Origin: Gemmatimonadota bacterium
GTDB taxonomy: Bacteria; Gemmatimonadota; Gemmatimonadetes; Longimicrobiales; Gaopeijiaceae
Length of the DNA stretch: 64,000 bases
Assembly (NCBI GenBank): GCA_040882465.1
Contig: JBBEBG010000029.1
Location: forward strand, 1-64,000
Direction of reading: 5' to 3'
The position numbers and the translations under genes were made by a program. The notes beneath the pieces are model-generated. The model was not told where the DNA came from, searched no databases, and saw nothing but the letters and a program-made list of their open reading frames with translations. Shown here one piece after another: positions 45,081 to 63,975 of the stretch. The stretch's first letter is position 1, and every line of letters begins with the position of its first letter.

Positions 45081-46301
45081 TCAGCGTTCGCCCCAACCGC
45101 GCTCGGACAGGTACGCGAGGTATCCCTCGAAGTTCCGGCGTGTCTCCTGGATGGAGTCCCCCGCGAATTTTTCCATGAACGCGTCCGCAACGACGAGCGC
45201 GACCATCGCCTCGCCCACCACTGCGGCAGCGGGGACCGCGCAGACGTCGCTCCGCTCCGTGGCGGCCTCCTGGGCGCTCCCATCGCGGAGGTCCACCGAA
45301 GGGAGGCGCTGCTTCATGAGCGTCGAGATCGGCTTCATCGCGCCGCGAACCACGATCGGCTCGCCCGTAGTGACGCCCCCTTCGAGCCCCCCGGCTCCAT
45401 TGGAGGAGCGCGCGAATCCCCCCGCGCGGTCGGCCGCGCTGCTCCGTACGATCGGGTCGTGAACGCGGGAGCCCGGACGCCGGGCCCCCTCGAAACCGAG
45501 CCCGATCTCGACTCCCTTGATCGCCTGGATGGACATCATCGCACCCGCGAGGCGGCCGTCCAGCTTTCGGTCCCAGCTGACGTGGCTTCCCAGCCCGACG
45601 GGAACCCCGGTCGCGACGACCTCGAAGACCCCACCGAGGGTGTCGCCTGCGTCCCTGGCCCGGTCGATCGCCTCCACCATCCGCGCGCTCGCCTCGGGAT
45701 CGAGAGTGCGAACCGGTGAAATATCTGCCGCCCCATTCAGGTCGTCGGGAAGCGCCTCGGGAGGGCGCGCCTCGACGTCCCCGATGGAGCGAACGTGACT
45801 CCCGATCTCGATCCCGAACTCGGAAAGGAGGCGGCGCGCCACGGCGGCACAGGCCACGCGGGCCGCGGTCTCCCGGGCGCTGGCCCGCTCCAGGATGTCG
45901 CGAGTGTCCCGTCGGTTGTATTTCAGCACGCCGACCAGGTCGGCATGACCTGGGCGGGGGAGGTACATGGCGCGTAACGCTTTCGGGTTCTCGTCGGCGG
46001 GGGGAGGCAGGGGGCTCATCGCCGTGGTCCAGTTTTCCCAGTCCCGATTCCAGATGAGCATGGAGATCGGAGACCCGAGCGTCTCGCCGAGGCGGACCCC
46101 GGAGATGATCTCGGCCCGGTCCGACTCGATCTCCATCCGGCGCCCGCGGCCATGTCCGCCCTGGCGCCTCGCCAGATGAGGGTCCACGTCCCGCGCCATT
46201 TCCAGAGAAAGACCGGCGGGGATCCCTTCGAGGAAGGCCACGAGTCCCCTCCCGTGGGATTCCCCGGCGGTCCCAAAAGAAATGCTGCGAAGGAGCGTCA
46301 T
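45081..46301 (-). CDS. aroC: Chorismate synthase
   Basis: A 406-residue FMN-dependent enzyme that makes chorismate. It has FGTAGESHGRGLVAFLEGIPAG at the N terminus, with the catalytic His, GHADLVGVLKYNRRDTRDILERASARETA in the middle, and KGVEIGLGFEGA and SSNGAGGLEGGVTTGEPI toward the end. The ATG at 46299-46301 has no obvious ribosome site: a 15-bp hairpin ends 11 bases upstream. It pairs with aroK, next on the strand. Confidence 0.94.
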   Translation of the reverse strand: MTLLRSISFGTAGESHGRGLVAFLEGIPAGLSLEMARDVDPHLARRQGGHGRGRRMEIESDRAEIISGVRLGETLGSPISMLIWNRDWENWTTAMSPLPPPADENPKALRAMYLPRPGHADLVGVLKYNRRDTRDILERASARETAARVACAAVARRLLSEFGIEIGSHVRSIGDVEARPPEALPDDLNGAADISPVRTLDPEASARMVEAIDRARDAGDTLGGVFEVVATGVPVGLGSHVSWDRKLDGRLAGAMMSIQAIKGVEIGLGFEGARRPGSRVHDPIVRSSAADRAGGFARSSNGAGGLEGGVTTGEPIVVRGAMKPISTLMKQRLPSVDLRDGSAQEAATERSDVCAVPAAAVVGEAMVALVVADAFMEKFAGDSIQETRRNFEGYLAYLSERGWGER

Positions 46302-46312
46302 CGAGGTAAGCT

Positions 46313-46347
46313 CACGCCCGGTCTGGAACGTGTCCAGACCGGGCGTG
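46313..46347 (-). terminator. 15-bp perfect hairpin between the surface-protein gene and aroC
   Basis: CACGCCCGGTCTGGA pairs perfectly with TCCAGACCGGGCGTG around an ACGTG loop. No T-run follows on either strand. It may end or trim the long pil transcript before aroC, or fold over the aroC start region, which begins 11 bases beyond the stem. The rest of the 46302-46421 gap has a small GGCC-TGAT-GGCC hairpin. Confidence 0.55.
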
Positions 46348-46421: not shown

Positions 46422-49400
46422 TCAGGGCCCACGGAGGATGTCCGCCTTGGTGACGTTGATGACGACCACGCCGCCCTGGCTCCCGACCCCGTAAAGCTTC
46501 ACGGCGACGCATGCGTCGTCGGACCCTGCCAAAATGACAGCCCCAGAACCGTCTGTCCCGCAGGTCAGTCCCGCATTGTCGCCCGGGAACGGAAGGGTCG
46601 AGCGCACCGGTCCGACGATGGTGTCTCGGATATGCACATGGCCACTCCGGAAGTAGTTACGGGTGTCGTAGATCTCGACCCGGTTGTTCCCTACCGGAAC
46701 GAATGCGTACGCCCGATTCGCCGGTGTTGCGAGCCCTTCTCCGGTGTGCGTCGGGTGCAACGCCACGCCGCCGCCTCCGGCGGAAATCGCCGGGCTCCCG
46801 ATGAGGCGGAGATCCCTGTCGAAGAAGTATACGCCGAACAACCCGCGTCCAACGCCCATCGTCCCGTCCTGATTCATCGCCACGCCCAAGACCCGCTCGG
46901 CCGCGTTCCCGACGAGGTCCACTACGGTGATCGCGTCCGTGATGGACTCGTCCGCGGCCCGCCAGAGGAAGATCCGGCCCGTCGTCGCCGTGGCGCCTTC
47001 GCCGATCGCCACGACGCTTCCGTCACCCGACCTCGCGATAAAGGTGGTGTCGGTGAGCCCCACGGACTCGATGTCCCACCGGCCCTGGAATCCGACGGGC
47101 CAGAAGAGGGGGTCGGCAGGGACGGCGGTGGAGACGTCGCCGAGCAGTTCGGCGAAAGCGCCGCAGGTTCCGTCCGTGGGGCACACGCCCGTGTAGACTG
47201 CCGTGGTGAATTCAGTCGCCGGGGTTCCCGGCTGGTGCGTGCGCAAGAAGATGCCGCCGGGCTCGGTGAAGGCCCGATCCACATTCCCCAACGCCCGCCA
47301 GCCGTCCGAGGGCGTCGTCCGACCATGCCCCGTGAAGAGCAGAACCTCGGGCGTCGGTCCGACTCCGAAGTCCACGAGCCGAATCGTTCCGTCCGGCGCG
47401 GCTCCCGTGGGCCGTGTCGAATACACGAGCCGACCCGCAACGTCTTCGGCCACGAACTGGGGCCGGTCGGAGAAGTCGAAGGGAATCGCCGTGAAGTTCA
47501 CCTGACCCTGGTTCACCGACTCCTGCACGTCCCAGAGGAGCGTATTCGGCGTGGAGATTCGATTCAGCTCCATGCGCCCGCCCACATCGACCCTCGAGAT
47601 GTTCGTCCCCCCCGAATTCGCCACGAAGAGGAGGTTTTCGTCAATCAGTCCCGGGGCGAGCCCCCACGGGTCGGACCCAACGAGAATCGGACTCTCATAC
47701 GTCCGCGTCGCGAGGTCGAAAACCTCGAGATGCCCGAGCGAGATATTCGAGAGAATGAGGAGGCCCTCGGGGGCATGGATCGCCGCGTCGGCGATGGATC
47801 CGCCGGCCGGGAGGCGAACCGTTTCGCCTGAGACCAGGGCCAGGACCACGTGCTGTCCAGTCTCTCCCGTCGCGACTGTGAAGTCGTCGCCGCCGTCCGT
47901 TACGGTGGCGCAACCGAGTCGCTGGAAGAGGGTGGACGACACCGCCGCCGCGCAGTTCCCCATCGCGTCCATGGACCACCCGAAGAAGTCGAGATCGAGT
48001 GTGTCCGGGCGATTGACCGGGTCATAGAACGGGTCACCGAGGGAGTCCACGAAGTCTTCGAGCGCGCGGAGCCTGAAGACCCGCGTGACGGTGCCGCCCA
48101 CGCCACCGCCCGTCGAGATCGTATCGGCAAGCCAGAGCGTGTCCGCCTGGTTGTCTCGCCGGACCACCCGCACGGTGTATCCGGTCCGCTGGACCCCCGA
48201 GCCACCGGCGTTGTCGCGCGCGGTGACGCTCACCCGGATCGAGTCGGTCACCTCGATCCGATTCGGGTCGCCGACCGCTCCCTGGGGCTCGATGAGGATC
48301 CGCACTTCGGGGGCGATTCCGTCTACCCCGCCGCCCCCACTGATGACGTTCAGGGTCACGAGCGGCGCGGTTCCGAAGATACCGTTCGTGTTGCGCGCGG
48401 TGGCCCGAATCGTCAGCGGACCCGATGCGAGCGCGGGAATCGTGTAGTCGAAAGTCAGGTCTATGGCATTCGGATTCTGGCCGGCCAGCACGAAGTCTTC
48501 GAGGGTGGCCGTGTCCGCGCCGCTGATCTCGACACGTACCAGGTTCACCCCGGCCGGGTCCGTGGCCGTCACCCGGATCGGGAGCGCCTGGCCGGCCGAA
48601 ATGGATTGCCCGTCCACGAGGTCGGGGAGTTGGACCGAGGGTCCACCCATCGTGATCAGGACCGAATCGCGGCCGACGACTCCGAACGCATCCTCCGCCA
48701 CGACCCGGATATACACGGACTCCGAAACGGTACCGAGCGGCTGGAGGAAACGGGCAATGATCGTGTCCATGGGAAGCGGACTACTGAAGTCCACGACCTT
48801 GGGCGCGTAGCGGAGAACCTCCTGGTGTGTTCCCAGGTCACGATCTCCCCGGTGGGCAACCCCCGAAAAGATGACGCGGGCCACCCCGATGGGATGCTGG
48901 ATCCGGGCCCGCACGAAGATGGAATCCGTGAGAGATGAGCCGGAGTCCACCGTGGGATTCAGGATCTGGATCGAGGGGGCGAGCTCCTCCGTTGCCGTCA
49001 GTGTCACCGTGATCGTATCGGCGGCGACGTTCCCACGGGCGTCGGTGGCCGTCACGATGAAGTGGACGGCCTCCTCCGTCGTATCTGGCACCGGGATCAT
49101 CAGGCGGAGGATCTGCTGCGGGAGGATGCGCGGCGGATCGAGCTGGACCTCCCGCGGCTGGAACCGGACGATCTCCTCCTCCGCGAGGAGATCGGGGTCG
49201 CCGCGGAGAGAGATCCCCTGGAATCGCACCGAAACGACGCCGCTCTTCACGAAACCGTTGGGATCGGAGACCGTCGCCAGGAGCGAGATCGAATCCCCGA
49301 TGTTGAAGATGGCGCCGGTCCCGGGGGCATTGATGACGACCACGGGGGGACTCTCGTCCGCCAGGATCTGGATCGAGACGGTGTCGGCGGAGACATTGTC

Positions 49401-50459
49401 TTGCCTGTCGGTCGCGGTGACGATCACCTGGACCATTTCCGCGCCGATGAGTGCGTTCGCTTTGAGGAAGCGGGTGAGCGTGGTGTCCGCTGAAGCCTGG
49501 ACGAGGTTGATGTTCCAAGGATTGTAGCGGTCGATGACCTCGAAGGTCCCGAGATCCGGGTCGCCTCGGAAGGCGACGCCTTCGATCCTCACCAGCGACA
49601 CCTTGTCGTTGTCGGTGACCCGCACGCGCACCAGAACCGAGTCGGCCTCGGCCACCTGGAGGCCCGGCGCCGGAAGCTGGATGTCCACGACCGGGTCCTC
49701 TTCGTCAATGAAGATGACCTCGATCGAGTCGGCTTCCATCCCCATCCCGAAATTCCCCTCGAGGTCCCACGCAAAGGGATTCAGCGCATAGTCGCCAAGG
49801 GGGAAATCAATGGGGACATCGAAGGTGAATTGGGCCACGTTCACGAGGCCGCCGATCAGGACGGAGTCCCGCGCCACCTGCTGCTGCGCCGGCGAGAGCA
49901 TCTGATAGCCGATCGCCCGCAACCCGATGTTATCCTCCCCCTGCACTTCGATGTCGAAGCTCTTTCCCTGTCCGACGACCCCCTGTCCGACCGCGAGTGT
50001 CGTGGTCGGCGGCGTCGTATCAATGGCCCGGACCGTGTCCACGCTCGGAAGGCTTCGGTTTCCCTGGGCGTCGTACGCGATCGCGGTGACCACGACGAGG
50101 GTGTCCGTAATCGGTTTTGGAATCTCGAAGTCCGTCCCGGCCGAGAAGTCCGTTTCGTTGTTCTGCGACATCTGGACGCGCCGGAAAGCGAACTCGCCTC
50201 CGGTCGCGGTCAGGACGATCGAGTCCACCCGCACGAGTGCCACGGCTCGGGTTTCAACGGACAGGAGCCCGCCCGACATCACGGAGGGCGGGAGGAGGAA
50301 GTTGATGATCTGCGGACCGATGCCGACGCCCGGCCCGAAGAGGTTCTGGCCTTCGCACCCCCATGCGGCAAGCGCGACAAGAGCGCCCGTTACGGGGGCT
50401 CTCCAGCGTCTCCGCCGCCGAGCGGCGCGTGCCAAGGGGCCAATCATCGGAGTCGTCAC
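46422..50459 (-). CDS. Large repeat lipoprotein of the pil operon
   Basis: A 1345-residue protein that I do not recognise as a named family. A long Arg-rich start precedes a hydrophobic segment and a lipobox (LAAWGC, C35), so it is probably an outer-membrane lipoprotein. Residues about 60-710 are a row of Ig-like beta-sandwich modules. Three neighbouring modules share a core RGDPDLGT (298-305), RGDPDLLA (419-426) and RGDRDLGT (537-544), spaced 121 and 118 residues apart. From about 870 on, the sequence looks like a beta-propeller or strand-repeat domain with alternating Gly/Asp turns. GTG start, 1 bp after the pilQ stop, so it is coupled to pilQ and may act at the pilus exit or as a surface adhesin. 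Confidence 0.75.
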   Translation of the reverse strand: MTTPMIGPLARAARRRRRWRAPVTGALVALAAWGCEGQNLFGPGVGIGPQIINFLLPPSVMSGGLLSVETRAVALVRVDSIVLTATGGEFAFRRVQMSQNNETDFSAGTDFEIPKPITDTLVVVTAIAYDAQGNRSLPSVDTVRAIDTTPPTTTLAVGQGVVGQGKSFDIEVQGEDNIGLRAIGYQMLSPAQQQVARDSVLIGGLVNVAQFTFDVPIDFPLGDYALNPFAWDLEGNFGMGMEADSIEVIFIDEEDPVVDIQLPAPGLQVAEADSVLVRVRVTDNDKVSLVRIEGVAFRGDPDLGTFEVIDRYNPWNINLVQASADTTLTRFLKANALIGAEMVQVIVTATDRQDNVSADTVSIQILADESPPVVVINAPGTGAIFNIGDSISLLATVSDPNGFVKSGVVSVRFQGISLRGDPDLLAEEEIVRFQPREVQLDPPRILPQQILRLMIPVPDTTEEAVHFIVTATDARGNVAADTITVTLTATEELAPSIQILNPTVDSGSSLTDSIFVRARIQHPIGVARVIFSGVAHRGDRDLGTHQEVLRYAPKVVDFSSPLPMDTIIARFLQPLGTVSESVYIRVVAEDAFGVVGRDSVLITMGGPSVQLPDLVDGQSISAGQALPIRVTATDPAGVNLVRVEISGADTATLEDFVLAGQNPNAIDLTFDYTIPALASGPLTIRATARNTNGIFGTAPLVTLNVISGGGGVDGIAPEVRILIEPQGAVGDPNRIEVTDSIRVSVTARDNAGGSGVQRTGYTVRVVRRDNQADTLWLADTISTGGGVGGTVTRVFRLRALEDFVDSLGDPFYDPVNRPDTLDLDFFGWSMDAMGNCAAAVSSTLFQRLGCATVTDGGDDFTVATGETGQHVVLALVSGETVRLPAGGSIADAAIHAPEGLLILSNISLGHLEVFDLATRTYESPILVGSDPWGLAPGLIDENLLFVANSGGTNISRVDVGGRMELNRISTPNTLLWDVQESVNQGQVNFTAIPFDFSDRPQFVAEDVAGRLVYSTRPTGAAPDGTIRLVDFGVGPTPEVLLFTGHGRTTPSDGWRALGNVDRAFTEPGGIFLRTHQPGTPATEFTTAVYTGVCPTDGTCGAFAELLGDVSTAVPADPLFWPVGFQGRWDIESVGLTDTTFIARSGDGSVVAIGEGATATTGRIFLWRAADESITDAITVVDLVGNAAERVLGVAMNQDGTMGVGRGLFGVYFFDRDLRLIGSPAISAGGGGVALHPTHTGEGLATPANRAYAFVPVGNNRVEIYDTRNYFRSGHVHIRDTIVGPVRSTLPFPGDNAGLTCGTDGSGAVILAGSDDACVAVKLYGVGSQGGVVVINVTKADILRGP

Positions 50460-50460
50460 G

Positions 50461-52266
50461 TCAGCGACTGATCTCGGGAGTGACCAGGATCAGGAGGTCC
50501 CGCTGGATCGTCTGTTCCCGGGACAGTCGGAAAAATCGCCCGATGAGGGGAAGGTCCTGAAGAAGGGGGATCCCTGCCCGCGACTGCGTCAGCTCGGTGA
50601 CAGTGAGGCCGCCGATGACCACGGTTTCGCCGTCCGGGACCAGAACCTGCGTGTCCACGGACTGTGTGTTGAAGATGAAGCCGATGTCGGCGTTCGGAGA
50701 GATCTCTAGGCCCGACCTTTCCGCGCGGACATCCATCCAGATGAGATCTCCGGCCGTCACGTGCGGCGTCACCTCGAGGATGATCCCGGTCTCCTCGATC
50801 TGGACCGTGGCCTGCGGGAACTGCGCGCCCGCCTGTTGGCCGCCACCAGCCGCTCCCGCGTCCACGACGCGGATCGGGGTGCGTTCGCCAACCACGATTC
50901 GTCCGAGACGATTGTCGAGAACGCGCGTGGACTGCGCGGACTGGACGTCGCTCAGATTGACCGACTGCAGTGCTTCCACGAAGGAGATCAGGGTATGGCG
51001 CCCCATGATCAGCGAGGTGAGGAGTTGGAGCGCCGGCCCGGTGACCCGCTGGTTCGCGTTCCCGAGCGCCGCGATCGAATTCCCTCCGAGGGCGACGACG
51101 TTCGTCCCGACCCCGACTACCTCTCCATCCTCGGGATCAACGCTGATCTGACCATCTCCGTTTACGTCGATCCCTCCCGGCGTGAGTTGATTGAGCTGGT
51201 TCCCCTGCGAGTCCTTGAGATCGTAGGTGATGCCGAACTCCTGCAGGTCCGTCCGGTTCACGAAGAAAATCTTCGCCGAGATCATCACTTCGGGAGTCCG
51301 CAGATCGAGCCCGTTCACAAGCTGTTCGACGGAGGCCATGACCCGCGGGATGTCGGTCACCACCAGCTGATTGGTGGATGTGCTGACGGCGACGCTGCCA
51401 CGCTCGCTCAGGAGAGTCTCGATCGAAGTCTGGAGCTCGGATGCAGTCGCGTAGTTGACGCGGAACGTGCGGGTCACAACCTGCTCGACCTCTTCGCGAC
51501 TCTGAAGCGCGGAGAGTTGATCCACCAAAATGATCCCCGACGCCAGCTCTTCGGCCGCGAGCCCCTGGGACTCGAGGATCGCCTGGAGCGCGATGTCCCA
51601 GGGCTGGCCGCGAATATCCAGGTTGACGGTCCCCGTGACCCCCGCGCCCGGCACGATCGAACGATTCGAGAATTCCGCGAAGTCGAAGAGGACTTCGAGG
51701 ATGGGAGTGTTCACGTAAGTGACCGAAATCGGGTCCACGAACTGCTGCGGCGCCAGGCCGCTCCAGCGCGGGCGGCTGGCCGTCGCCGCGGCCGCCGCGG
51801 GCGTGAGCAATGCAGAGGCGACACCGGTCGAGGCAGGGGACGAAACCGAGGTCGCGGAAGCCCAAGGCTCAAAGTCTCCCCAGGGGTTTTCGAGGGAGAT
51901 ACGGACGTAGCCGTCCCCCGACGAGAGCGAGTACCCGACCGGTCCCAGGACTTCGAGTACGATCCGGACGATGTCGTCCGAATACTGGCTTGCGCGAATC
52001 GTCTGCACGCCGCCCCGCCCGAGATTCTCGAAGCTCTCTCGGGGAAGGAGAAAGCGCGCGTTGATGAGGTCCACCACGATTCGATGGGGGCCCTCCATCA
52101 TGAAGTCGCGCGTCTCCACGCCTCCGGCGACCGCGATGACCACCTCGGTCTTCTGGGCCGACGGAAGGATCTGTAATCCGGTCACGTCTCCGGCGGCGGT
52201 GCCGTCCGCTCTGACGCCAGTCGCCATCAGGAGTGCGACGGTCCAAGTTGCCCATACCGAAGTCAT
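50461..52266 (-). CDS. pilQ: Type IV pilus secretin PilQ
   Basis: About 601 residues. It forms the outer-membrane gate for the pilus. A signal peptide is followed by an AMIN domain (about 30-120, GGVETRDFMMEGPHRIVVDLINARF), an STN domain (about 185-250), a secretin N domain and the C-terminal secretin barrel, with the signature PLLQDLPLIGRFFR and the ending DLLILVTPEISR. I start at the ATG at 52264-52266: GGAGG lies six bases upstream and the codon overlaps the pilP stop as ATGA. Confidence 0.95.
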   Translation of the reverse strand: MTSVWATWTVALLMATGVRADGTAAGDVTGLQILPSAQKTEVVIAVAGGVETRDFMMEGPHRIVVDLINARFLLPRESFENLGRGGVQTIRASQYSDDIVRIVLEVLGPVGYSLSSGDGYVRISLENPWGDFEPWASATSVSSPASTGVASALLTPAAAAATASRPRWSGLAPQQFVDPISVTYVNTPILEVLFDFAEFSNRSIVPGAGVTGTVNLDIRGQPWDIALQAILESQGLAAEELASGIILVDQLSALQSREEVEQVVTRTFRVNYATASELQTSIETLLSERGSVAVSTSTNQLVVTDIPRVMASVEQLVNGLDLRTPEVMISAKIFFVNRTDLQEFGITYDLKDSQGNQLNQLTPGGIDVNGDGQISVDPEDGEVVGVGTNVVALGGNSIAALGNANQRVTGPALQLLTSLIMGRHTLISFVEALQSVNLSDVQSAQSTRVLDNRLGRIVVGERTPIRVVDAGAAGGGQQAGAQFPQATVQIEETGIILEVTPHVTAGDLIWMDVRAERSGLEISPNADIGFIFNTQSVDTQVLVPDGETVVIGGLTVTELTQSRAGIPLLQDLPLIGRFFRLSREQTIQRDLLILVTPEISR

Positions 52267-52883
52267 GACCACCCTCCGTTACCGTTCAAGGCGGTGTGCG
52301 CGTGCGCCCCATCGGGAGCGGCGTTCTCCACGGAGCCACCCGCCGGGGCTTGCTCGGGGGCAGGTCGGTCCTGGGCATCCTGCACGGCCGCGATGGCCGG
52401 ATCGGGCGTGCTAAAGTTCCGCCTGAGCTCCAACATGCGCGTTTCCCTCAACCCGAACTCCACGACTTCCAGGAGAACCATTTGGTCGCGGATCTCCAGA
52501 AGCCTGATGTCGCCGAGGATGTCACCGACCCTGAGGCGATAGGTTCGCTCCGGGGCACCGCCCTGCTGAGTGCCTGGTTGCCGCGCTCCCACGAGGGCGA
52601 TGGATGAAGCCGGATTCGAAGAGATGATCCGGCCCATGAGCACCAGATCCTCGAAGCGCGGACCCACCGAAGCCGCCCCGGTGAGAGGACGAAATGGATT
52701 CCTCCGGTCGTAACCCGGATAGCTGAAGACTTCACGGTCGTACACGAGCTCGATCGTATCCGCGGGGACGTCTAGCGGAGTTCCTCCCGGAGACGTTTGC
52801 TGCTGCGCGAAGATCGGGTCCCCGTTCAGGGTCCCGCCTGCCAGGAGCGCCGCGGTTGCCATGGCTTTCAGTCCCCCACTCAT
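52263..52883 (-). CDS. pilP: PilP-like pilus assembly protein
   Basis: A 206-residue protein with a short signal-like hydrophobic segment (about 6-26) and no clear lipobox. The central HR-type domain (about 55-150, GYDRRNPFRPL ... RVGDILGDIRLLEIRD) resembles PilP/GspC HR domains, which link the inner-membrane platform to the secretin. Low similarity is usual for this family, so the call leans on position between pilO and pilQ. It overlaps pilO and pilQ by 4 bp. Confidence 0.8.
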   Translation of the reverse strand: MSGGLKAMATAALLAGGTLNGDPIFAQQQTSPGGTPLDVPADTIELVYDREVFSYPGYDRRNPFRPLTGAASVGPRFEDLVLMGRIISSNPASSIALVGARQPGTQQGGAPERTYRLRVGDILGDIRLLEIRDQMVLLEVVEFGLRETRMLELRRNFSTPDPAIAAVQDAQDRPAPEQAPAGGSVENAAPDGAHAHTALNGNGGWS

Positions 52884-53494
52884 TCGTTGACCCTCCCGAC
52901 GTCCGCGGGGACGGCAGCCACGCCGGCGGCGCCAGGGAGGACGTACGTGAGGACGCGGAAGCGCGCGGTGACGGGAGCCACCATCGTTTCTTGGGGAGGT
53001 GTACCGGTGTAAGGCTCCACGTCCAGCCCAATCGGCGTGATGATTCGTGAAAGGGAGGCGATGGAAGCCAGAAACCGGCCGACGGGATGGAAGTCCCCCA
53101 CCACGGCGACCTCGTAGCTCTGCTCCGTATAGAACTCGCCCGCTTCGCTGGGACCTGGATTCAGCGCCCCCATCTCTACTCCCACGCGCCGCGCCTCGAG
53201 CACGATGCTGTTCAGGAGCGCGGGCACTTCGTCATTTTGGGGGATGAGTTCCTCGAGCCGCCGGACGTGCCGCTCGTAGATCACGAGATCGTCTTCGAGA
53301 TCGGCGCTTCGGGCCTCCACCACACGCGCCTGCCGATTGCGGTTCTCGAGGCCGTCCAGCCGGGCCTGAAGCGAGTCTATCCCGTCGAGCTGGGGCGTGT
53401 ACCAATACTCGTAGAATCCATAACCGACGGAGATCGCCGCGATGATGATGATCAGCGCGATCTGATGGTTCCTCTCCTTGGGGAGGAGTGACAT
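52880..53494 (-). CDS. pilO: PilO-like pilus alignment protein
   Basis: A 204-residue protein with one N-terminal membrane helix (about 12-27), a coiled coil (about 35-90; LQARLDGLENRNRQARVVEA) and a C-terminal ferredoxin-like domain (about 105-190). This layout is typical of PilO. It pairs with PilN in the inner-membrane platform. It is 3 bp after pilN and overlaps pilP by 4 bp. Confidence 0.85.
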   Translation of the reverse strand: MSLLPKERNHQIALIIIIAAISVGYGFYEYWYTPQLDGIDSLQARLDGLENRNRQARVVEARSADLEDDLVIYERHVRRLEELIPQNDEVPALLNSIVLEARRVGVEMGALNPGPSEAGEFYTEQSYEVAVVGDFHPVGRFLASIASLSRIITPIGLDVEPYTGTPPQETMVAPVTARFRVLTYVLPGAAGVAAVPADVGRVNE

Positions 53495-53497
53495 CGC

Positions 53498-54193
53498 TCA
53501 GTCCCCCTGCACGCCGGGCGGAACCACCGATGGCCCGAAGAGGGGAATGAGCTCGATCACTTCCGGGGGAGGTTCGCGGCTGAACCCTTCGAGAGTAAAC
53601 GAGTAGACGAACTGGCTGGTCCCGGGTCCGGTCGGAACGGAGACCTGCTCGGAGGAGATGAGCGACACGCGTTCGATGAAGGGCGACGCCTCGAGGTTCT
53701 CCATCAGCGTCGTGAGCCCGAAGTAGGTTCCCGACTGTCCTTCCAGTCGGAAGAGGACTTCCGCTCCCCCCCCGGTCACCTCCGTCATGCGGGTAAGCCA
53801 GGTGTAGTCCGGGAGCGCTCGCCCGACCTCGTCCATCAGGTGAGGCCAAAGATATCGCGCGTCGTCGATGTCCTGAATCACGGCAACCCGCCGCGCGATC
53901 GTGTCGCGGCGAGCTTGAAGCACTCCAGTCCGGCGAATGATCTCGGAAAATCGCGCGGAATCCGCCTGCTGGAGCTCAATCTGAACTTGGAGCTCTTCGG
54001 CGACGCCGATGACCCCCAGGAAGAGCCAGGCGGCGCCCCCGAGGACTCCGATCACGGCGATTCCCGCCGCCATGGACCAGCGGCCCATCCTGGGCGCCTT
54101 CCCCCCACCCCCGAACTTGGGAAGCGAGAAAGAAAACTTGGGCCCGCGAGAGGATTTCCTCCGGGCGCCGGGCCTGAGGTCTACCTCGATCAC
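53498..54193 (-). CDS. pilN: PilN-like pilus alignment protein
   Basis: About 231 residues. I start at the GTG at 54191-54193 (GGAGGA five bases upstream), because it gives MIEVDLRPG, close to the cytoplasmic PilN motif that binds PilM (family I-N-L-L-P). The longer frame upstream runs antisense-like through pilM. One membrane helix (about 41-65) and a coiled coil follow, then a ferredoxin-like domain. It forms the PilMNO platform with its neighbours. Confidence 0.85.
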   Translation of the reverse strand: MIEVDLRPGARRKSSRGPKFSFSLPKFGGGGKAPRMGRWSMAAGIAVIGVLGGAAWLFLGVIGVAEELQVQIELQQADSARFSEIIRRTGVLQARRDTIARRVAVIQDIDDARYLWPHLMDEVGRALPDYTWLTRMTEVTGGGAEVLFRLEGQSGTYFGLTTLMENLEASPFIERVSLISSEQVSVPTGPGTSQFVYSFTLEGFSREPPPEVIELIPLFGPSVVPPGVQGD

Positions 54194-54212
54194 CCGATCC
54201 TCCGCATCTCGG

Positions 54213-55250
54213 TCATGGAGCGCGGAGCGCCAGACCCAGGGGGAGAAGGAGCATCGGACCCACCTCGTCGAGGACCAGGTTGGTCGGCGTCCCAGCGCGG
54301 ACGGGGATCCTCTCGAATGGATTGACGAGGATCGTCTCGACGGCGAGGCGCCCCCCAATCGCTTCGGCGAGCCCGGAGATCCGCGCTCCGCCGCCCGAGA
54401 GGTAGATGCGGCCGAGCCCGGCTCCCGAGTCCCGCGTGGTCAAGAAGGCGGCAGCCCGTTCGACACCCACGGCAACTTCGTCGGCGCTGCCGCGGACAAA
54501 AGCCATGATGTCCTGTGGGCGCACCTTAGCCTGGAGGAGCTCGTCGGCCGCTTCGGCTGTGAGGCCCCGCTCTCTCTGCAGATCCTCACGCATTTTCCGG
54601 GAGCCGAAGGGAATGTCGCGCGTGAGGATCGGACTCCCGTCCTCGAGAATGTTCACGTTCGTCATCTCGTGTCCGACATTCACGAGCGCAACGATCCCCT
54701 GCATCCCCTCGGGATAATTTCGCTCGAACGCGTTATGAAGCGCGAAAGCGTCCACGTCGATGAGACGAGGCGACAGCCCCGCCTCGGCGAGGAGCGCGAC
54801 CTTGTTTTCCACGAGCTCCCTTTTCGCCGCGACCAGCAGAACCTGCATCTGAAGGCCGTCCGAATCCGGATCCAGAATCTCGAAGTCGAGCTCCACGCTG
54901 TTGATGTCGAAGGGCACATGCTGCTCGGCTTCCCAACGGATCACCTCGCGTGCGTCCGACTCCTTCATCCGGTCCATCTCGATCTTCTTGATGATCACGT
55001 CGTGGCCGCCGACCGCGGTCACGACCTCCTTCTTCTTGAGGCCGGACTCGGCGACGAGCTCCCTTACGGTTTCGGATACCAGTCCAGGATCCATGATTTC
55101 CCCCTCCACGATGGCGTCGGGGAGGAGGGGTCTCATTGCGATCCGAACCACTTCCGGATAGTCCCCGGAGTGGTCCACCTCGACGAGCTTCACGAAACCG
55201 CTCCCTATGTCGAGGCCGATCGAGGTCTTTTTTTGTCCGAATAGGCCCAT
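54213..55250 (-). CDS. pilM: Type IV pilus assembly ATPase PilM
   Basis: A 345-residue actin-like cytoplasmic protein. It begins SIGLDIGSGFVKLVEVDH, the phosphate-1 loop, and has the internal motifs ALVNVGHEMTNVNI and LSGGGARISGLAEAIGG. It binds the N-terminal tail of PilN. It is the first gene of the pilMNOPQ operon, with a promoter at 55301-55330. Confidence 0.94.
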   Translation of the reverse strand: MGLFGQKKTSIGLDIGSGFVKLVEVDHSGDYPEVVRIAMRPLLPDAIVEGEIMDPGLVSETVRELVAESGLKKKEVVTAVGGHDVIIKKIEMDRMKESDAREVIRWEAEQHVPFDINSVELDFEILDPDSDGLQMQVLLVAAKRELVENKVALLAEAGLSPRLIDVDAFALHNAFERNYPEGMQGIVALVNVGHEMTNVNILEDGSPILTRDIPFGSRKMREDLQRERGLTAEAADELLQAKVRPQDIMAFVRGSADEVAVGVERAAAFLTTRDSGAGLGRIYLSGGGARISGLAEAIGGRLAVETILVNPFERIPVRAGTPTNLVLDEVGPMLLLPLGLALRAP

Positions 55251-55384: not shown

Positions 55385-56623
55385 TCAGAACGATGCCCCC
55401 GTGATGTCGACCCACCCGCGTTCCGCGAGCGGGGCCAGCCGATTGAGTGCCGAGTTGTTCATGACCGCCCGCTGGACCGCGCATCGGGAATTGCGAACGA
55501 TGGAGGACCCGACGAAGGACTGCTCCCCGCCCGCGAGCGTGTCCCCAAGAATGGCCAGGTTGGCGGACATGACACCGCCCGACACGCGCGGGGCGTCCTG
55601 CCCCGAGCCCTGGACGCCGAACTCCCCCTGCACGATGATGATTCCGTAGTAGTGGAACGAACCTCTGAGGTCCAAGTCGCCATCGACGAGCAGGATTCCT
55701 TGCCCCCGCCCGTTGGACTGGAGATTTGCGTTCCCGTTGATGTAGACGATCGGGAAGTAGCTCCCACAGGCTCCGGACGGGTCGTTGGGATCCCCCCAGT
55801 TCATGGGGTCCGCGTAGTTGCATGCCCCTGAACCCGTGAGAGACGGGGTCATCCCGTTGTGGCTTCCGCCCGGAAGGGTGATGGTCGCCATCGCCGCGAG
55901 GTCTTCCCAAGTCGTGTCGCCGAACTGCTGGAAGCTCTCCGCGTTCAGATTCGGATCCTCGACGTGTGCCTCCGGGGACCCGCTCACTACCGCGTTTCCC
56001 TGGGTCGTCACGGTCCGCGGGGGTGTGGCGACGTCGGTGACCACCGCGGGGAGATCCTCCAGGGGACTCGGGCACAGATCCGCGCCCCAGCCCGCGGGAT
56101 TTTGATCCTCTCCGCGGATCTGCGCGGATCCGCGAACGGTCACGTCGCCCCGCGTCACGAGCGCCGCCGGGGGCGCGAGATCCACCGAGAGGACTCGCGC
56201 GAGAATGCCGAGCGTACGGCTGGCCTCAGCGCCCATGGGAGCCGGAACGGTGCCCGTCGTAATCACGAAGAAGAGCCGATCGTCCACCTTTCGGACCTCC
56301 GCCTCCCAAGCACCCTGCGGAGAGGATCCATTGATCGTCTCGGTATTTCCCCAAACGGTAAGCGTGCTCGCTCCAGGGTTGTACGTACCGAGAACGGTGT
56401 TCATGCCGTTCTCCGCGACGTAGAAGGCCTGAGAGCCGCGTTCCGTCGCCTGCCCGATGCGTGATTCCTGGGTCGCGAGAACGATCCCCCCGGTCACCAA
56501 CACACCAACCACGACGAGGGCGAACACGGCCGCGGGCAGTGCGAAGCCCCGCGATGTAGCGCATGGCCGCGCGACACCTGCCACTCCCCTGGACACAAAT
56601 TCACACCTCAGTGACTCGCTCAT
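55385..56623 (-). CDS. PilX-like pilus assembly protein with a beta-repeat domain
   Basis: About 412 residues. I start at the ATG at 56621-56623 (AGAGG eight bases upstream); a GTG at 56656 is possible. A class III-like N-terminal segment (SRGFALPAAVFALVVVGVLVTGG) fits PilX-type minor pilins, though position +5 is not Glu. From about residue 155 the sequence becomes a row of short beta turns (TRGDVTVRGSAQIRG and later INGNANLQSNG, LLVDGDLDLRGSFH), like a beta-solenoid. This is larger than usual PilX. It is the last of four minor pilin genes. Confidence 0.7.
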   Translation of the reverse strand: MSESLRCEFVSRGVAGVARPCATSRGFALPAAVFALVVVGVLVTGGIVLATQESRIGQATERGSQAFYVAENGMNTVLGTYNPGASTLTVWGNTETINGSSPQGAWEAEVRKVDDRLFFVITTGTVPAPMGAEASRTLGILARVLSVDLAPPAALVTRGDVTVRGSAQIRGEDQNPAGWGADLCPSPLEDLPAVVTDVATPPRTVTTQGNAVVSGSPEAHVEDPNLNAESFQQFGDTTWEDLAAMATITLPGGSHNGMTPSLTGSGACNYADPMNWGDPNDPSGACGSYFPIVYINGNANLQSNGRGQGILLVDGDLDLRGSFHYYGIIIVQGEFGVQGSGQDAPRVSGGVMSANLAILGDTLAGGEQSFVGSSIVRNSRCAVQRAVMNNSALNRLAPLAERGWVDITGASF

Positions 56624-56670
56624 CTTGAAGACCTCTTCTCTTGTAAGTTCTTTCACTGTTGTCGTTTTCG

Positions 56671-57663
56671 TCAGTTTCTGAGCTGCACGGAGGTGGTCAG
56701 GCTGTCCCCGATCGCCCCGCCGCTCTCCGTCGTGGCGAGCGAGGCTGTCCTGAGTTCGAGAGTGACGATTCGAACCTGCGCCGGGGTCGCGGCTGGATCT
56801 CCGTCCTCATCGAAGTAGTCGAAGCGGAGTCCGTCTTCATCGCGGAGCGGCCCCACCAGCCGTGCGACCGAGCCCCCTGCGACCCGTACGAGGTACAGTT
56901 CCCCCGAGAATTCCTCCACCGTGTACTCGATTTCTTCCCAGGATCTCAGCGGCGCCCCCTGACGGATCCAAGTCCAGTCCGTGGCGTCGAAGCCAGTCAC
57001 GGTGAGGTTCTGGGCCGGATGGTTGTCGGCCCCGCACGTCTGTTCATCCTCGGCATCCTGAATCGTCGTCTCGAGCCAGGCGTCGTCCGCCGCCGTTTCG
57101 GGATCGAGATCGGCGAAGACGTAGAGCGATTCGCCCTCCAGGAAGGGACGGGTCATGACCGCCGCTCTCAGGACTGGCGTGGTCACGGATCCGACCACAC
57201 AGACGAGGCCGTGGGCGCGGAGGGCGCGAAAGGACACCCGGTCTTCCTCGATGACGAGAAGATCTCCACCGGCCGCACTCACTTCCCTCAGCTCCTGCGT
57301 GAGCAGGTCGATTCCGGCACGCACCGTCTGGTGTCCCGCGACCTGTTCACTCTGGACGACCGACACCCGCTGGTTCGTCACCAGGACCCGATAAACGGCG
57401 CCCATGAGCACGCTTGCGATGAGGGCCGAAACGATGAGTTCCACGATCGTGAACCCAGCCGTCCCGCCCGGTCTTGCCGAGCGACCAGCATTACGGCTGG
57501 CTCTGCGAGCCCACAGGCGAGCTAACCCAGCCGTCCCACCCGGTATCGAAGAGCGACCAGAAATGCGGGTGGCTCCGCGAGACGACAGGCGAGCTAATCC
57601 AGGCGTCTCATCCGTTCGGAGGGCGGGCACCGCTTCCCGGAACTGACCGCTCGTTACGCTCAT
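56671..57663 (-). CDS. PilW-like minor prepilin with a 70-residue repeat leader
   Basis: A 330-residue protein. The prepilin site is G70-F71-T-I-V-E75, with the Glu at +5, then a hydrophobic helix. The leader of 70 residues is very long for a prepilin (usually 6-30), and residues 22-45 and 46-69 are two copies of a 24-residue unit, GLARL...RPGGTA-like. The mature part is like PilW/ComGF-type pilins. It overlaps the pilV-like gene by 4 bp (ATGA). No good internal start is seen, so the long leader seems real; a shorter start cannot be excluded. Confidence 0.72.
   Translation of the reverse strand: MSVTSGQFREAVPALRTDETPGLARLSSRGATRISGRSSIPGGTAGLARLWARRASRNAGRSARPGGTAGFTIVELIVSALIASVLMGAVYRVLVTNQRVSVVQSEQVAGHQTVRAGIDLLTQELREVSAAGGDLLVIEEDRVSFRALRAHGLVCVVGSVTTPVLRAAVMTRPFLEGESLYVFADLDPETAADDAWLETTIQDAEDEQTCGADNHPAQNLTVTGFDATDWTWIRQGAPLRSWEEIEYTVEEFSGELYLVRVAGGSVARLVGPLRDEDGLRFDYFDEDGDPAATPAQVRIVTLELRTASLATTESGGAIGDSLTTSVQLRN
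57457..57600 (-). repeat. Two 72-bp tandem repeats in the PilW-like leader
   Basis: Units 57529-57600 and 57457-57528 agree at 59 of 72 bases by my alignment, and a weaker partial copy starts at 57601. The length is a multiple of three, so the frame is kept. The end of each unit lines up with the cleavage-site glycine. Confidence 0.85.
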
Positions 57664-58037
57664 GGCCGATTGATCCGGTACTCGAGTGTGTCCGCCACTG
57701 AACTTTCGATTGCCGCCCGGGGTCCAATGCTTCCGGGAGCCCGACCCGGCCCGACGATCACGAACTCCACGCGCTTCCAGTTCGGCGACGACTCGACAAC
57801 CGACCAGGAGACGTCGAACTCACCTTGGCTCGCCGATCCCGATCCCACGACGGCGAAGGGGGAGCCCCGCACGACTTCCACGCTCGCCTGGAGGGCCACG
57901 GCTCGGTTCGTGTCGAGCTTCGTGAGACCCGTGGACCGGACCATCCAGCCCGTGCCCGCCGCAAGACCCAACACGCCGACGGTCAGCACGACCATCGCGA
58001 CGACGATCTCGATCAGCGTAAGTCCGGCCCGATTCAT
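57660..58037 (-). CDS. PilV-like minor prepilin
   Basis: A 125-residue prepilin. The cleavage site is G5-L6-T-L-I-E10, so the leader is only five residues, followed by one hydrophobic helix and a short domain. It resembles PilV/GspI-type minor pilins. ATG overlaps the fimT-like stop by 4 bp. It should be processed by the prepilin peptidase at 13.3 kb. Confidence 0.75.
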   Translation of the reverse strand: MNRAGLTLIEIVVAMVVLTVGVLGLAAGTGWMVRSTGLTKLDTNRAVALQASVEVVRGSPFAVVGSGSASQGEFDVSWSVVESSPNWKRVEFVIVGPGRAPGSIGPRAAIESSVADTLEYRINRP

Positions 58038-61288: not shown

Positions 61289-62695
61289 TTACTCCAGGCC
61301 GTACTCTCGAATCTTATAGCGAAGGGCGCGGTCGCTCAGGTCGAGGAGGGCGGCAGACTTTCCGCGATGCCCGCCCGTCCGCCTCAGCGCGGTCTGGATC
61401 AGTTGCCGCTCCAACTCTGCCGAGCGGCGCTTCACCGAGAGGTCGTTGTCGTCCAGCGCGCCCCAGGGAGCGCCGGAGCCGCCGCCGTCGTCCCGTCCTT
61501 CTCCGATGCCAAGCCCACCCGATGCGCCCGGTTCCCTCACTTGCAACGGGAGGTCTTCCAGGCGGATGCGTGGACCTTCGCACAGCACAAGCGCCCGCTC
61601 GAGGACGTTTCCGAGCTCGCGCACATTTCCGGGCCATGAATACTGGAGAAGGGCGTCCATCGCCGGACGCTCCACTCCCGAGGTTTCGACGTTCAGGCGC
61701 TGCCGATGAACGTCGAGGAGATGGTGGACGAGGAGGGGAAGGTCCTCCGGCCGGTCCTTGAGCGGGGGAAGTGCGACCGTCACGACCGCGATGCGGTAGT
61801 AGAGGTCCTCGCGGAAGCGACCGACGCCGACGTCGGTCTCGAGCAAGCGATTCGTGGCCGCCACGATGCGCACGTCGGCCTCCCTCGTCTTGGTGTCGCC
61901 GACGCGCCGGATCTCGCCTTCCTGGAGGGCCCGCAGAAGTTTCACCTGGAGGGACTCGGGAAGCTCGCCGACCTCGTCCAGGAAGAGGGTCCCGCCGTTC
62001 GCGGCCTCGAAGAGCCCTTCCCGATCGGAGTCCGCACCGGAAAACGCACCCTTCACGTAGCCGAAAAATTGCGATTCGAGGAGCCCTTCGGGAATCGCGC
62101 CGCAGTTCACCGCGACGAAGGGAGCGGACGCGCGCGCGCTTTCCCGGTGGATAAGGCGGGCGAGGAGCTCCTTACCCGTTCCGGTCGGCCCGGTGATGAG
62201 GATCGAAGTCGGGTGCTGGGCGACCTTGGTCGCCACCTCGAGGGCCCGCACCATTTCCGGGGATCGTGCCACGATCTCGCCGTACCGCTTCTCGGTACGC
62301 ACCTCCTGGCGAAGGCGCCCCACCTCGTTCCGCAGCCGCTCGCGTTCCTCGACCTTTTTGAGCGTGAGTAGGATTTCCTCGCCGCCAAAAGGCTTGGCGA
62401 TGAAGTCTGCGGCCCCCTTTCGCGTGGCGTCCACGGCGACGTCAATATTTCCGTAGGCGGTCATGACGACTACGGGCGCCGTACCCCCCGACTCCCGGTA
62501 GCTCCCGAGGAAGGCGAGGCCATCCATCCCCGGCATACGAACGTCCACGAGGATGAGGTCAGGGGTGGTGTCACGGGCGATCTTGAGTCCTTCCGTGGCG
62601 TCGCGCCCAGATTGGACCGTGTAACCCGCGTCCCCGAGAATCAGAGAAAGCGACTTCCGCAGTCCAGCATCATCATCCACGACAAGAACTCTCAT
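61289..62695 (-). CDS. NtrC-type sigma-54 response regulator
   Basis: A 468-residue response regulator. The receiver domain is complete: D7-D8 acidic pair, phosphorylation site D51 (LVDVRMPG), T79 and K101. The AAA+ domain has Walker A GPTGTGKE (169-176), but the sigma-54 loop reads GAFSGA (216-221) instead of GAFTGA. A Fis-type helix-turn-helix ends the protein. It overlaps the histidine kinase stop by 4 bp. By position it is likely to control the pilin genes that follow, like PilR. Confidence 0.93.
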   Translation of the reverse strand: MRVLVVDDDAGLRKSLSLILGDAGYTVQSGRDATEGLKIARDTTPDLILVDVRMPGMDGLAFLGSYRESGGTAPVVVMTAYGNIDVAVDATRKGAADFIAKPFGGEEILLTLKKVEERERLRNEVGRLRQEVRTEKRYGEIVARSPEMVRALEVATKVAQHPTSILITGPTGTGKELLARLIHRESARASAPFVAVNCGAIPEGLLESQFFGYVKGAFSGADSDREGLFEAANGGTLFLDEVGELPESLQVKLLRALQEGEIRRVGDTKTREADVRIVAATNRLLETDVGVGRFREDLYYRIAVVTVALPPLKDRPEDLPLLVHHLLDVHRQRLNVETSGVERPAMDALLQYSWPGNVRELGNVLERALVLCEGPRIRLEDLPLQVREPGASGGLGIGEGRDDGGGSGAPWGALDDNDLSVKRRSAELERQLIQTALRRTGGHRGKSAALLDLSDRALRYKIREYGLE

Positions 62696-63975
62696 CCGCC
62701 CTCCGAAGCCTCTGGAAGCCTGACAGTGAAGCGCGCCCCACCCTCCGGGCGATTCCCGGCTTCGATTCGACCGCCGAGTTCCTGCACGATCCTTGTGGTG
62801 ATGGCGAGTCCCACCCCGGTGCCCTTCCCCGGTTCCTTCGTCGTATAAAAGGGGTCGAAGATGAAGGGGAGGCTGTCGGCGGGAATCCCCGGGCCGTTAT
62901 CGGAGACGATCAAGACGACGTCGCGGGCCGCCTCGCCACCGGCCATCGCCCTTCGGGCCGTCCCTTCCGAGAAGAGGAGGGGGATTCGCCGGCGGTGCGA
63001 ATAGTCCACTTCCGGCGGATCGTCATCACGCCGCCGCTTGACGGGGAGGTCACGTACGGCCGGCCCCGCCCTGAGGTCAATCAGGATCTCGGGACTCTCC
63101 GACTCCCGCACCGCCCACAAGGCGTTCATGAGCAAATTGACCAGGACCTGTTCGAGGTATTGGGGGCGTGCGTTCACGATGTGATCGCCGGGTTCGGCGC
63201 GTGTGGTCACTGTTATGCCGTCGAGGGCCCCTCGCGTCTTGAGAAGCTCCAGTGAGCGATCGATCACTCGGATGACCGAAACGGTGGGGGGGCCCTCGGC
63301 GTCCCGCCCCGGATCCGCGAAGTCGAGCACGCTTCGGACGATGCGGTCAATGCGGCGGGCCTCGTCCATGGCGGATTCCATCGGTCCCTCGGAGTCGCCA
63401 CCGGAGTGCATCCGGTTTCGCGCCACGCCGAGGTAGGCCATGAGCGCGCCGAGGGGGTTCCCAACCTCGTGTGCGAGCCCAGCCGCCAGCGTTCCGATCG
63501 AAGCCATGCGCGCAGCCCGAACCAGCTCCTCGGTCGTCTCCACGAGATCCTGGTTCGTCCGATCGAGGGAGACGACGTTCTCGGCGAGTTTTTCACGGTC
63601 CGCGAGGAAGGCCTGGGCCATCGTGTTGAGGCTCTGCGCGAGCCGGTCCAGCTCGGCGCCGTCGCCCCCCGGGATCCGCTCCTCGTAGGCGCCTCCGGCA
63701 ATCCACTCCGCCTGTGCGGCAATCCGCTCCAGCGGTCGAAAGACGGTACGCTGGAGGAAGTACCGCATGAAGATGAAGGTGATCGCGAGGTCCGCGGTCA
63801 CGATCCCTGCGATGAGAAAGGCGCCCTGTGCAGGCGAATCCAGCCGTGGGAGCGTGACCGCGAGGGCGGCGAGTGCGAGAAGAACGGCGCCTGTGAACAG
63901 GACCGCCATGGAGACGAGAAGCTCCCGGCGGACCGACCGGCGGGGGCGAGACGTCGGCGCGGCGGTGGCGGTCAT
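62692..63975 (-). CDS. Sensor histidine kinase of the pilin two-component system
   Basis: A 427-residue kinase. Two membrane helices (about 19-41 and 51-74) have only about ten residues between them, so there is no real periplasmic sensor. A HAMP domain (about 75-128) and a short coiled coil follow. The HisKA box has H169 (GLAHEVGNPLGAL), and the ATPase domain has the N, G1 (DNGPGIP) and G2 (GTGVGLA) boxes. It lies directly upstream of the regulator with a 4-bp overlap. The last 25 bases of the window upstream hold no other feature I can see. Confidence 0.93.
   Translation of the reverse strand: MTATAAPTSRPRRSVRRELLVSMAVLFTGAVLLALAALAVTLPRLDSPAQGAFLIAGIVTADLAITFIFMRYFLQRTVFRPLERIAAQAEWIAGGAYEERIPGGDGAELDRLAQSLNTMAQAFLADREKLAENVVSLDRTNQDLVETTEELVRAARMASIGTLAAGLAHEVGNPLGALMAYLGVARNRMHSGGDSEGPMESAMDEARRIDRIVRSVLDFADPGRDAEGPPTVSVIRVIDRSLELLKTRGALDGITVTTRAEPGDHIVNARPQYLEQVLVNLLMNALWAVRESESPEILIDLRAGPAVRDLPVKRRRDDDPPEVDYSHRRRIPLLFSEGTARRAMAGGEAARDVVLIVSDNGPGIPADSLPFIFDPFYTTKEPGKGTGVGLAITTRIVQELGGRIEAGNRPEGGARFTVRLPEASEGG

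Follow-up and report, generated by a model that had tools for sequence, protein, structure and literature searches.

What is a large lipoprotein without a family name doing directly behind the gene for a type IV pilus secretin? Type IV pilus machines have been well mapped in a few phyla. The question arises from a window of 64,000 nucleotides of Gemmatimonadota DNA, in which a gene for a 1345-residue protein is the last of a pilMNOPQ cluster (Table 1). A sequence-only reading of the window had described this product as a lipoprotein encoded immediately after pilQ, and this is confirmed by the open reading frame with its lipobox and by the 1 bp that separates the pilQ stop codon from the GTG start codon. 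The same reading knew of no named pilus protein with such a build. We can only agree, as no Pfam or NCBIfam family covers the lipoprotein family, and a literature search found no study of Gemmatimonadota PilQ partners and no paper on the family itself.

On the other side of the gene lies aroC, its conserved downstream neighbour, preceded by a perfect 15-bp hairpin (dG -31.4) that is a possible transcript end for the lipoprotein gene. A promoter and terminator scan at the locus gave no signal exceeding that of shuffled sequences. Near the minor-pilin genes, at 61289-63975 of the window, there is also a histidine kinase with a sigma-54 response regulator resembling PilS/PilR.

Table 1. Positions of the features of the pil locus and of the lipoprotein in the window; the last row refers to loci of relatives.
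Feature	Position	Strand	Basis or remark
aroC (chorismate synthase), conserved downstream neighbour	45081..46301	-	
Perfect 15-bp hairpin between lipoprotein gene and aroC	46313..46347	-	no T run
Lipoprotein gene, 1345 aa, last of the pilMNOPQ cluster	46422..50459	-	ORF, lipobox, conserved order
Seven-bladed beta-propeller, residues ~867-1345	46425..47861	-	AF2, profile and fold matches
Ig-like domain with nearly invariant Cys836 and Cys850, before propeller, residues ~717-850	47910..48311	-	
Ig domain (Big_7), residues 607-706	48342..48641	-	
Ig module 3, RGDRDLG at residue 537	48645..48986	-	profile E 5.2e-40
RGDRDL, residues 537-542, hairpin tip	48834..48851	-	
Ig module 2, RGDPDLL at residue 419	48996..49358	-	profile E 3.5e-37; low AF2 confidence
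RGDPDL, residues 419-424	49188..49205	-	
Ig module 1, RGDPDLG at residue 298	49365..49706	-	profile E 1.4e-42
RGDPDL, residues 298-303, hairpin tip	49551..49568	-	end of long predicted strand
Two N-terminal Ig-like domains, residues ~50-249	49713..50312	-	AF2 model
Tether motif C-[DE]-G-x-N-x-F (here CEGQNLF), right behind lipobox	50337..50357	-	
Signal peptide up to lipid-acceptor Cys35 (LAAWG^C)	50355..50459	-	lipobox pattern
pilQ secretin, one AMIN domain	50461..52272	-	domain matches
pilP-like gene	52263..52883	-	position and conserved order
pilO	52880..53494	-	
pilN	53498..54358	-	
pilM	54213..55250	-	
Three minor-pilin-like genes (PilX/PilW/PilV-like)	55385..58037	-	
~230-aa secreted-protein genes behind paralogues	L072:5894-6604, L095:8439-9143, L100:6844-7539, L110:6077-6763, L121:7115-7819, L122:5576-6286		

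Predicted Anchor, Stalk and Head of the Lipoprotein

The lipobox pattern with Cys35 assigns the product to the bacterial lipoproteins, and it is probably membrane-anchored. An equivalent of Cys35 was found, by pattern, in 26 of the 26 family members examined. Behind it, the glycine, asparagine and phenylalanine of the tether motif are each conserved in at least 90% of the pilQ-linked members. The motif C[DE]GxNxF is not a tag private to this family, as two of its seven other matches in 19 genomes are themselves lipoproteins (L204 and L205), the remaining five appearing to be due to chance. These two proteins of relatives are unrelated to the family and share the start C-[DE]-G-x-N-L-F, a possible sorting signal.

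AlphaFold2 (AF2) models the chain as almost all-beta, with a string of Ig-like domains (pLDDT 83) followed by a propeller (pLDDT 90). There are seven Ig-like domains altogether: two N-terminal of the modules that carry an RGD triplet, the three modules themselves, and two C-terminal of them. The three modules had been recognized in the sequence-only reading, which did not mention the four further Ig-like domains or the propeller. A Foldseek search with the Ig half returned complement and alpha-2-macroglobulin chains (TM 0.15-0.24), a generic Ig-string match that carries no meaning.

The propeller is the most conserved part of the lipoprotein, with the motifs VGSxPWGL, ANSGGTN, FSDRPQ, YST and GEG and a C-terminal strand GVVVINV. 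It belongs with the YncE/YVTN-type seven-bladed propellers, being YncE-like by fold (TM-score 0.66-0.70 on target length, at ~10% identity) and YVTN-like by profile (E 1.8e-23 to 1l0q); the count of seven blades is our own reading of the strands in the AF2 model, together with the matched propellers. The same head fold occurs in the YncE/YVTN S-layer propellers (3vgz, 1l0q) and in Leptospira Lp49 (3bws), which differ from the lipoprotein in having neither a pilus link nor a multi-Ig stalk. Lp49 also couples an Ig domain to a propeller.

A propeller in a pilus operon invites comparison with PilY1/PilC (PF05567, T4P_PilY1), a member of the type IVa pilus gene set in which a variable N-terminus is followed by a C-terminal seven-bladed propeller (PMC13190605). 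PilY1 itself is encoded with the minor pilins, sits at the pilus tip and has an EF-hand-like Ca site (PMC13190605), whereas the lipoprotein has a lipobox and an Ig stalk and is encoded behind pilQ rather than after pilX. This gene place and the lack of a PF05567 match rule it out as a PilY1. PF05567 was matched neither by the 1345-residue protein nor by the C-terminal halves of 25 members, and it had no match across 58 relatives, though with the control genomes silent as well, a PilY1 may still be encoded there. The lipoprotein could still act as a functional stand-in for PilY1, its variable N-terminus and conserved propeller travelling with the pilus tip. The shared plan and the missing PF05567 matches would suit this, as would the minor-pilin genes of the locus, next to which no PilY1 gene was seen on inspection. 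We nevertheless regard it as very unlikely given the lipid anchor and the position of the gene, and a profile search of the PDB with the head returned S-layer, hydrazine synthase and Lp49 propellers, not PilY1.

RGD-Type Modules

The repeat that first drew attention to the protein is real. As had been described, three Ig-like modules with an RGDxDL core follow one another at intervals of about 120 residues; the triplets lie exactly at residues 298, 419 and 537 (spacings of 121 and 118), and the modules align as one unit of ~115 residues, identity to module 1 being 35% for module 2 and 33% for module 3. The core of module 2 has to be corrected from RGDPDLG to RGDPDLL. Three RGD triplets are within the reach of chance, with at least three found in 618 of 20,000 shuffles; the longer RGDxDL was expected 0.004 times and observed three times. 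In modules 1 and 3 the triplet would form the tip of a hairpin, as it sits where a long strand ends in the AF2 model. Module 2 is poorly modelled (pLDDT 40-60).

Judged from profile matches, the module type is a remote relative of Pfam Big_7 (PF17957). The whole protein scores 43.3 bits against a Big_7 cut-off of 24.1, module 1 alone falling below it at 22.0. In 16 of 17 modules the first strands match Big_7, and the match in module 1 ends after position 36 of 70. What sets the RGD-type module apart from Big_7 is an extra long hairpin with G..LGT..R[YF], which is also the conserved core of the module. The module profile matches relatives with E-values mostly between 1e-24 and 1e-44, and across 58 genomes it hits this lipoprotein family only, save for one marginal hit (E 1.6e-4) to an ordinary Ig domain of a paralogue. 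The thought that the modules might fall into a well-described family of unrelated context thus holds for their remote Big_7 kin but not for this version of the domain. Members carry from zero to six RGD-type modules, and one relative (G035, L078:7966-12384) has six in tandem within a 1473-aa open frame.

A functional RGD, by contrast, finds no support in the comparison. Of the 72 modules compared, which come from 54 proteins, 41 read RGD; elsewhere the triplet is RGS, RGN, RGR, RGV or RGE, or takes a looser form such as KGS, so that in many relatives N, S, R, V or E stands in place of the aspartate. An integrin-type ligand was rejected on this lack of conservation, and the family does not qualify as RGD-dependent adhesins. 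We read the RGDxxLG hairpin tips instead as part of the rod fold or of domain-to-domain contacts.

Linkage to pilQ, Loss and Reduced Forms

Among 58 relatives, the gene is present in 37, all of which have PilQ, and it is missing from all eight relatives that lack PilQ (Fisher p 1e-4, without correction for kinship). One genome per species was scanned with two peptide patterns drawn from the lipoprotein family itself, which gave 146 loci, of which 79 were kept; patterns of this origin could fail to find distant relatives outside the phylum. By title, 77 of the 79 are Gemmatimonadota, and we regard the other two, labelled Gammaproteobacteria and Kuenenia, as contigs with a wrong label or placed in the wrong bin. 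In the one collection scanned, the family as defined by these patterns is confined to Gemmatimonadota. Within the phylum, 189 of 297 genomes gave a match, some of them weak; those at about E 1e-4 probably reflect generic propellers. In the other class of the phylum, five genomes encode PilQ-like secretins and give no strong match to the lipoprotein. Here and throughout, E-values come from single-genome searches and counts are uncorrected for kinship except on the tree.

Far from never sitting beside pilQ, homologues are found there as a rule. The gene adjoins pilQ in 66 of the 73 loci with room upstream on the contig, the order pilQ-gene-aroC is seen in 61 of 79 Gemmatimonadota loci, and within the taxonomic order of the source organism there are 21 pilQ-adjacent loci with this arrangement. 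A place behind pilQ kept across most of the class suggests that the pilus machine has a new accessory component. Such linkage also bears on the idea of an unrelated envelope enzyme or housekeeping lipoprotein, with a lactonase-like propeller and an accidental position. Lactonase or PQQ-repeat models do match some members weakly, but no catalytic signature was recognized in the propeller lipoprotein, the linkage holds across families of the class, and the gene is absent where PilQ is absent, which makes this idea highly improbable. A link to the retraction ATPase PilT was dropped, as PilT-family ATPases occur both with and without the gene in no clear pattern.

The gene is not indispensable. 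On a tree of PilM and AroC from 29 loci (a quick tree without direction, L093 being a long branch), its presence changes five to six times; at least four of these changes fall on well-supported branches, and pilMNOPQ and aroC remain where they are throughout. At least four clean losses are the simpler reading, preferred since distant families share the same slot, and it follows that the lipoprotein gene is accessory. The pilQ-aroC gaps of the losers (88-270 bp) contain no lipoprotein gene. On the tree, an AMIN-bearing PilQ accompanies the slot lipoprotein in 20 of 20 members, and the six loci with AMIN-less PilQs (L082, L083, L084, L085, L089 and L093) are without it. This association is only a lead, since it comprises just two independent contrasts and is not significant. 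In Myxococcus, AMIN domains place PilQ at the pole (PMC10653833), and the AMIN-less loci might mark a switch in pilus placement.

Some genomes fill the slot with less. G040 (L099) has a complete Ig-only lipoprotein behind pilQ, with ~515 residues after the cysteine and no head, and in G042 and G054 it is reduced to a single Ig domain, again headless; all three keep the C-x-G-x-N-x-F tether. Such propeller-less lipoproteins, in which the tether is followed by between one and about four Ig domains, lie at L099:5714-7426, L091:795-1354 and L094:8429-8987. Paralogues away from the pil locus, present in some genomes, have a short stalk or none. Together with the headless forms, they suggest that the protein is built from separable tether, stalk and head units. 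At six off-locus paralogue loci, two close pairs included, a homologous gene for a small secreted protein of ~230 residues follows, and two copies of this protein score against Pfam outer-membrane beta-barrel families, below the curated cut-off. Pairing with an outer-membrane protein may therefore recur, and the paralogue with its barrel-like gene may be a second, putative lipoprotein/barrel pair in the phylum.

A Proposed Accessory of PilQ or a Surface Adhesin

Our preferred reading, held tentatively and with somewhat less than even confidence, is that the lipoprotein is a lipid-anchored stalk-and-head protein serving as an outer-membrane accessory of PilQ in Gemmatimonadota. It would be made together with PilQ, and its acylated cysteine and tether would anchor it in the outer membrane beside the PilQ pore. 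The Ig rod would hold the propeller at a distance from the membrane, and there the head could bind the pilus as it emerges, a surface polymer or an adjacent cell, and in this way gate or tune pilus exit and adhesion. An outward rod is favoured because the range of stalk lengths would fit poorly in a periplasm of fairly constant depth. In a more specific form, which we consider improbable, tether and rod would build an outer-membrane collar on PilQ with the head at the pore mouth, taking over the tip adhesion and gating role of PilY1.

Several observations count against a PilQ accessory. Gene position alone can be explained by shared regulation, the core pilus genes persist after the losses, and the forms in G040, G042 and G054 have no head. 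The residue after the lipobox cysteine is Asp or Glu, which counts against the outer-membrane placement. An Asp in this position means inner-membrane retention in E. coli, a rule that may not hold in Gemmatimonadota.

A surface adhesin could share the operon for display with pili, its Ig rod projecting the propeller towards surfaces or polysaccharide without any contact to PilQ. An Ig-string stalk that changes in copy number, a propeller head and a lipid anchor would all fit, as would the paralogues away from the pil genes. A free-acting adhesin would be expected to move, yet 66 of 73 copies remain behind pilQ, and with the RGD not conserved we think this reading rather unlikely.

The protein might also face the periplasm as a factor that assembles or anchors the secretin, much as a pilotin or TsaP does, with the tether and Ig domains helping PilQ to multimerise or holding it and the propeller in the periplasm. 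Pilotins are small and built of TPR repeats, and TsaP has a LysM domain; a Pfam scan found neither domain in the lipoprotein, and its models are almost all-beta. The type IV pilus pilotins (Tgl, PilF), which are outer-membrane lipoproteins, and TsaP act on PilQ, PilF doing so through TPR1 (PMC10653833). A lipoprotein gene adjoining the secretin gene, its restriction to AMIN-type PilQ in our sample, the survival of single-Ig forms in the slot and the Asp or Glu after the cysteine would agree with such a role. It is improbable in view of the missing domains, the repeated loss with pilQ kept and the large variation in stalk length.

A large protein so firmly linked to pilQ across most of a bacterial class, for which neither a family name nor a paper was found, points to an unexamined component of the pilus machine or of the apparatus for its adhesion. 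The lineages that repeatedly dropped the gene cleanly and retained the core pilus genes are natural knock-outs for comparison, and as Gemmatimonas genomes carry the gene (L148 and L168, for example), a bench test in cultured Gemmatimonas is conceivable. Should a collar on PilQ prove true, the type IV pilus machine would have a structural component that is new.
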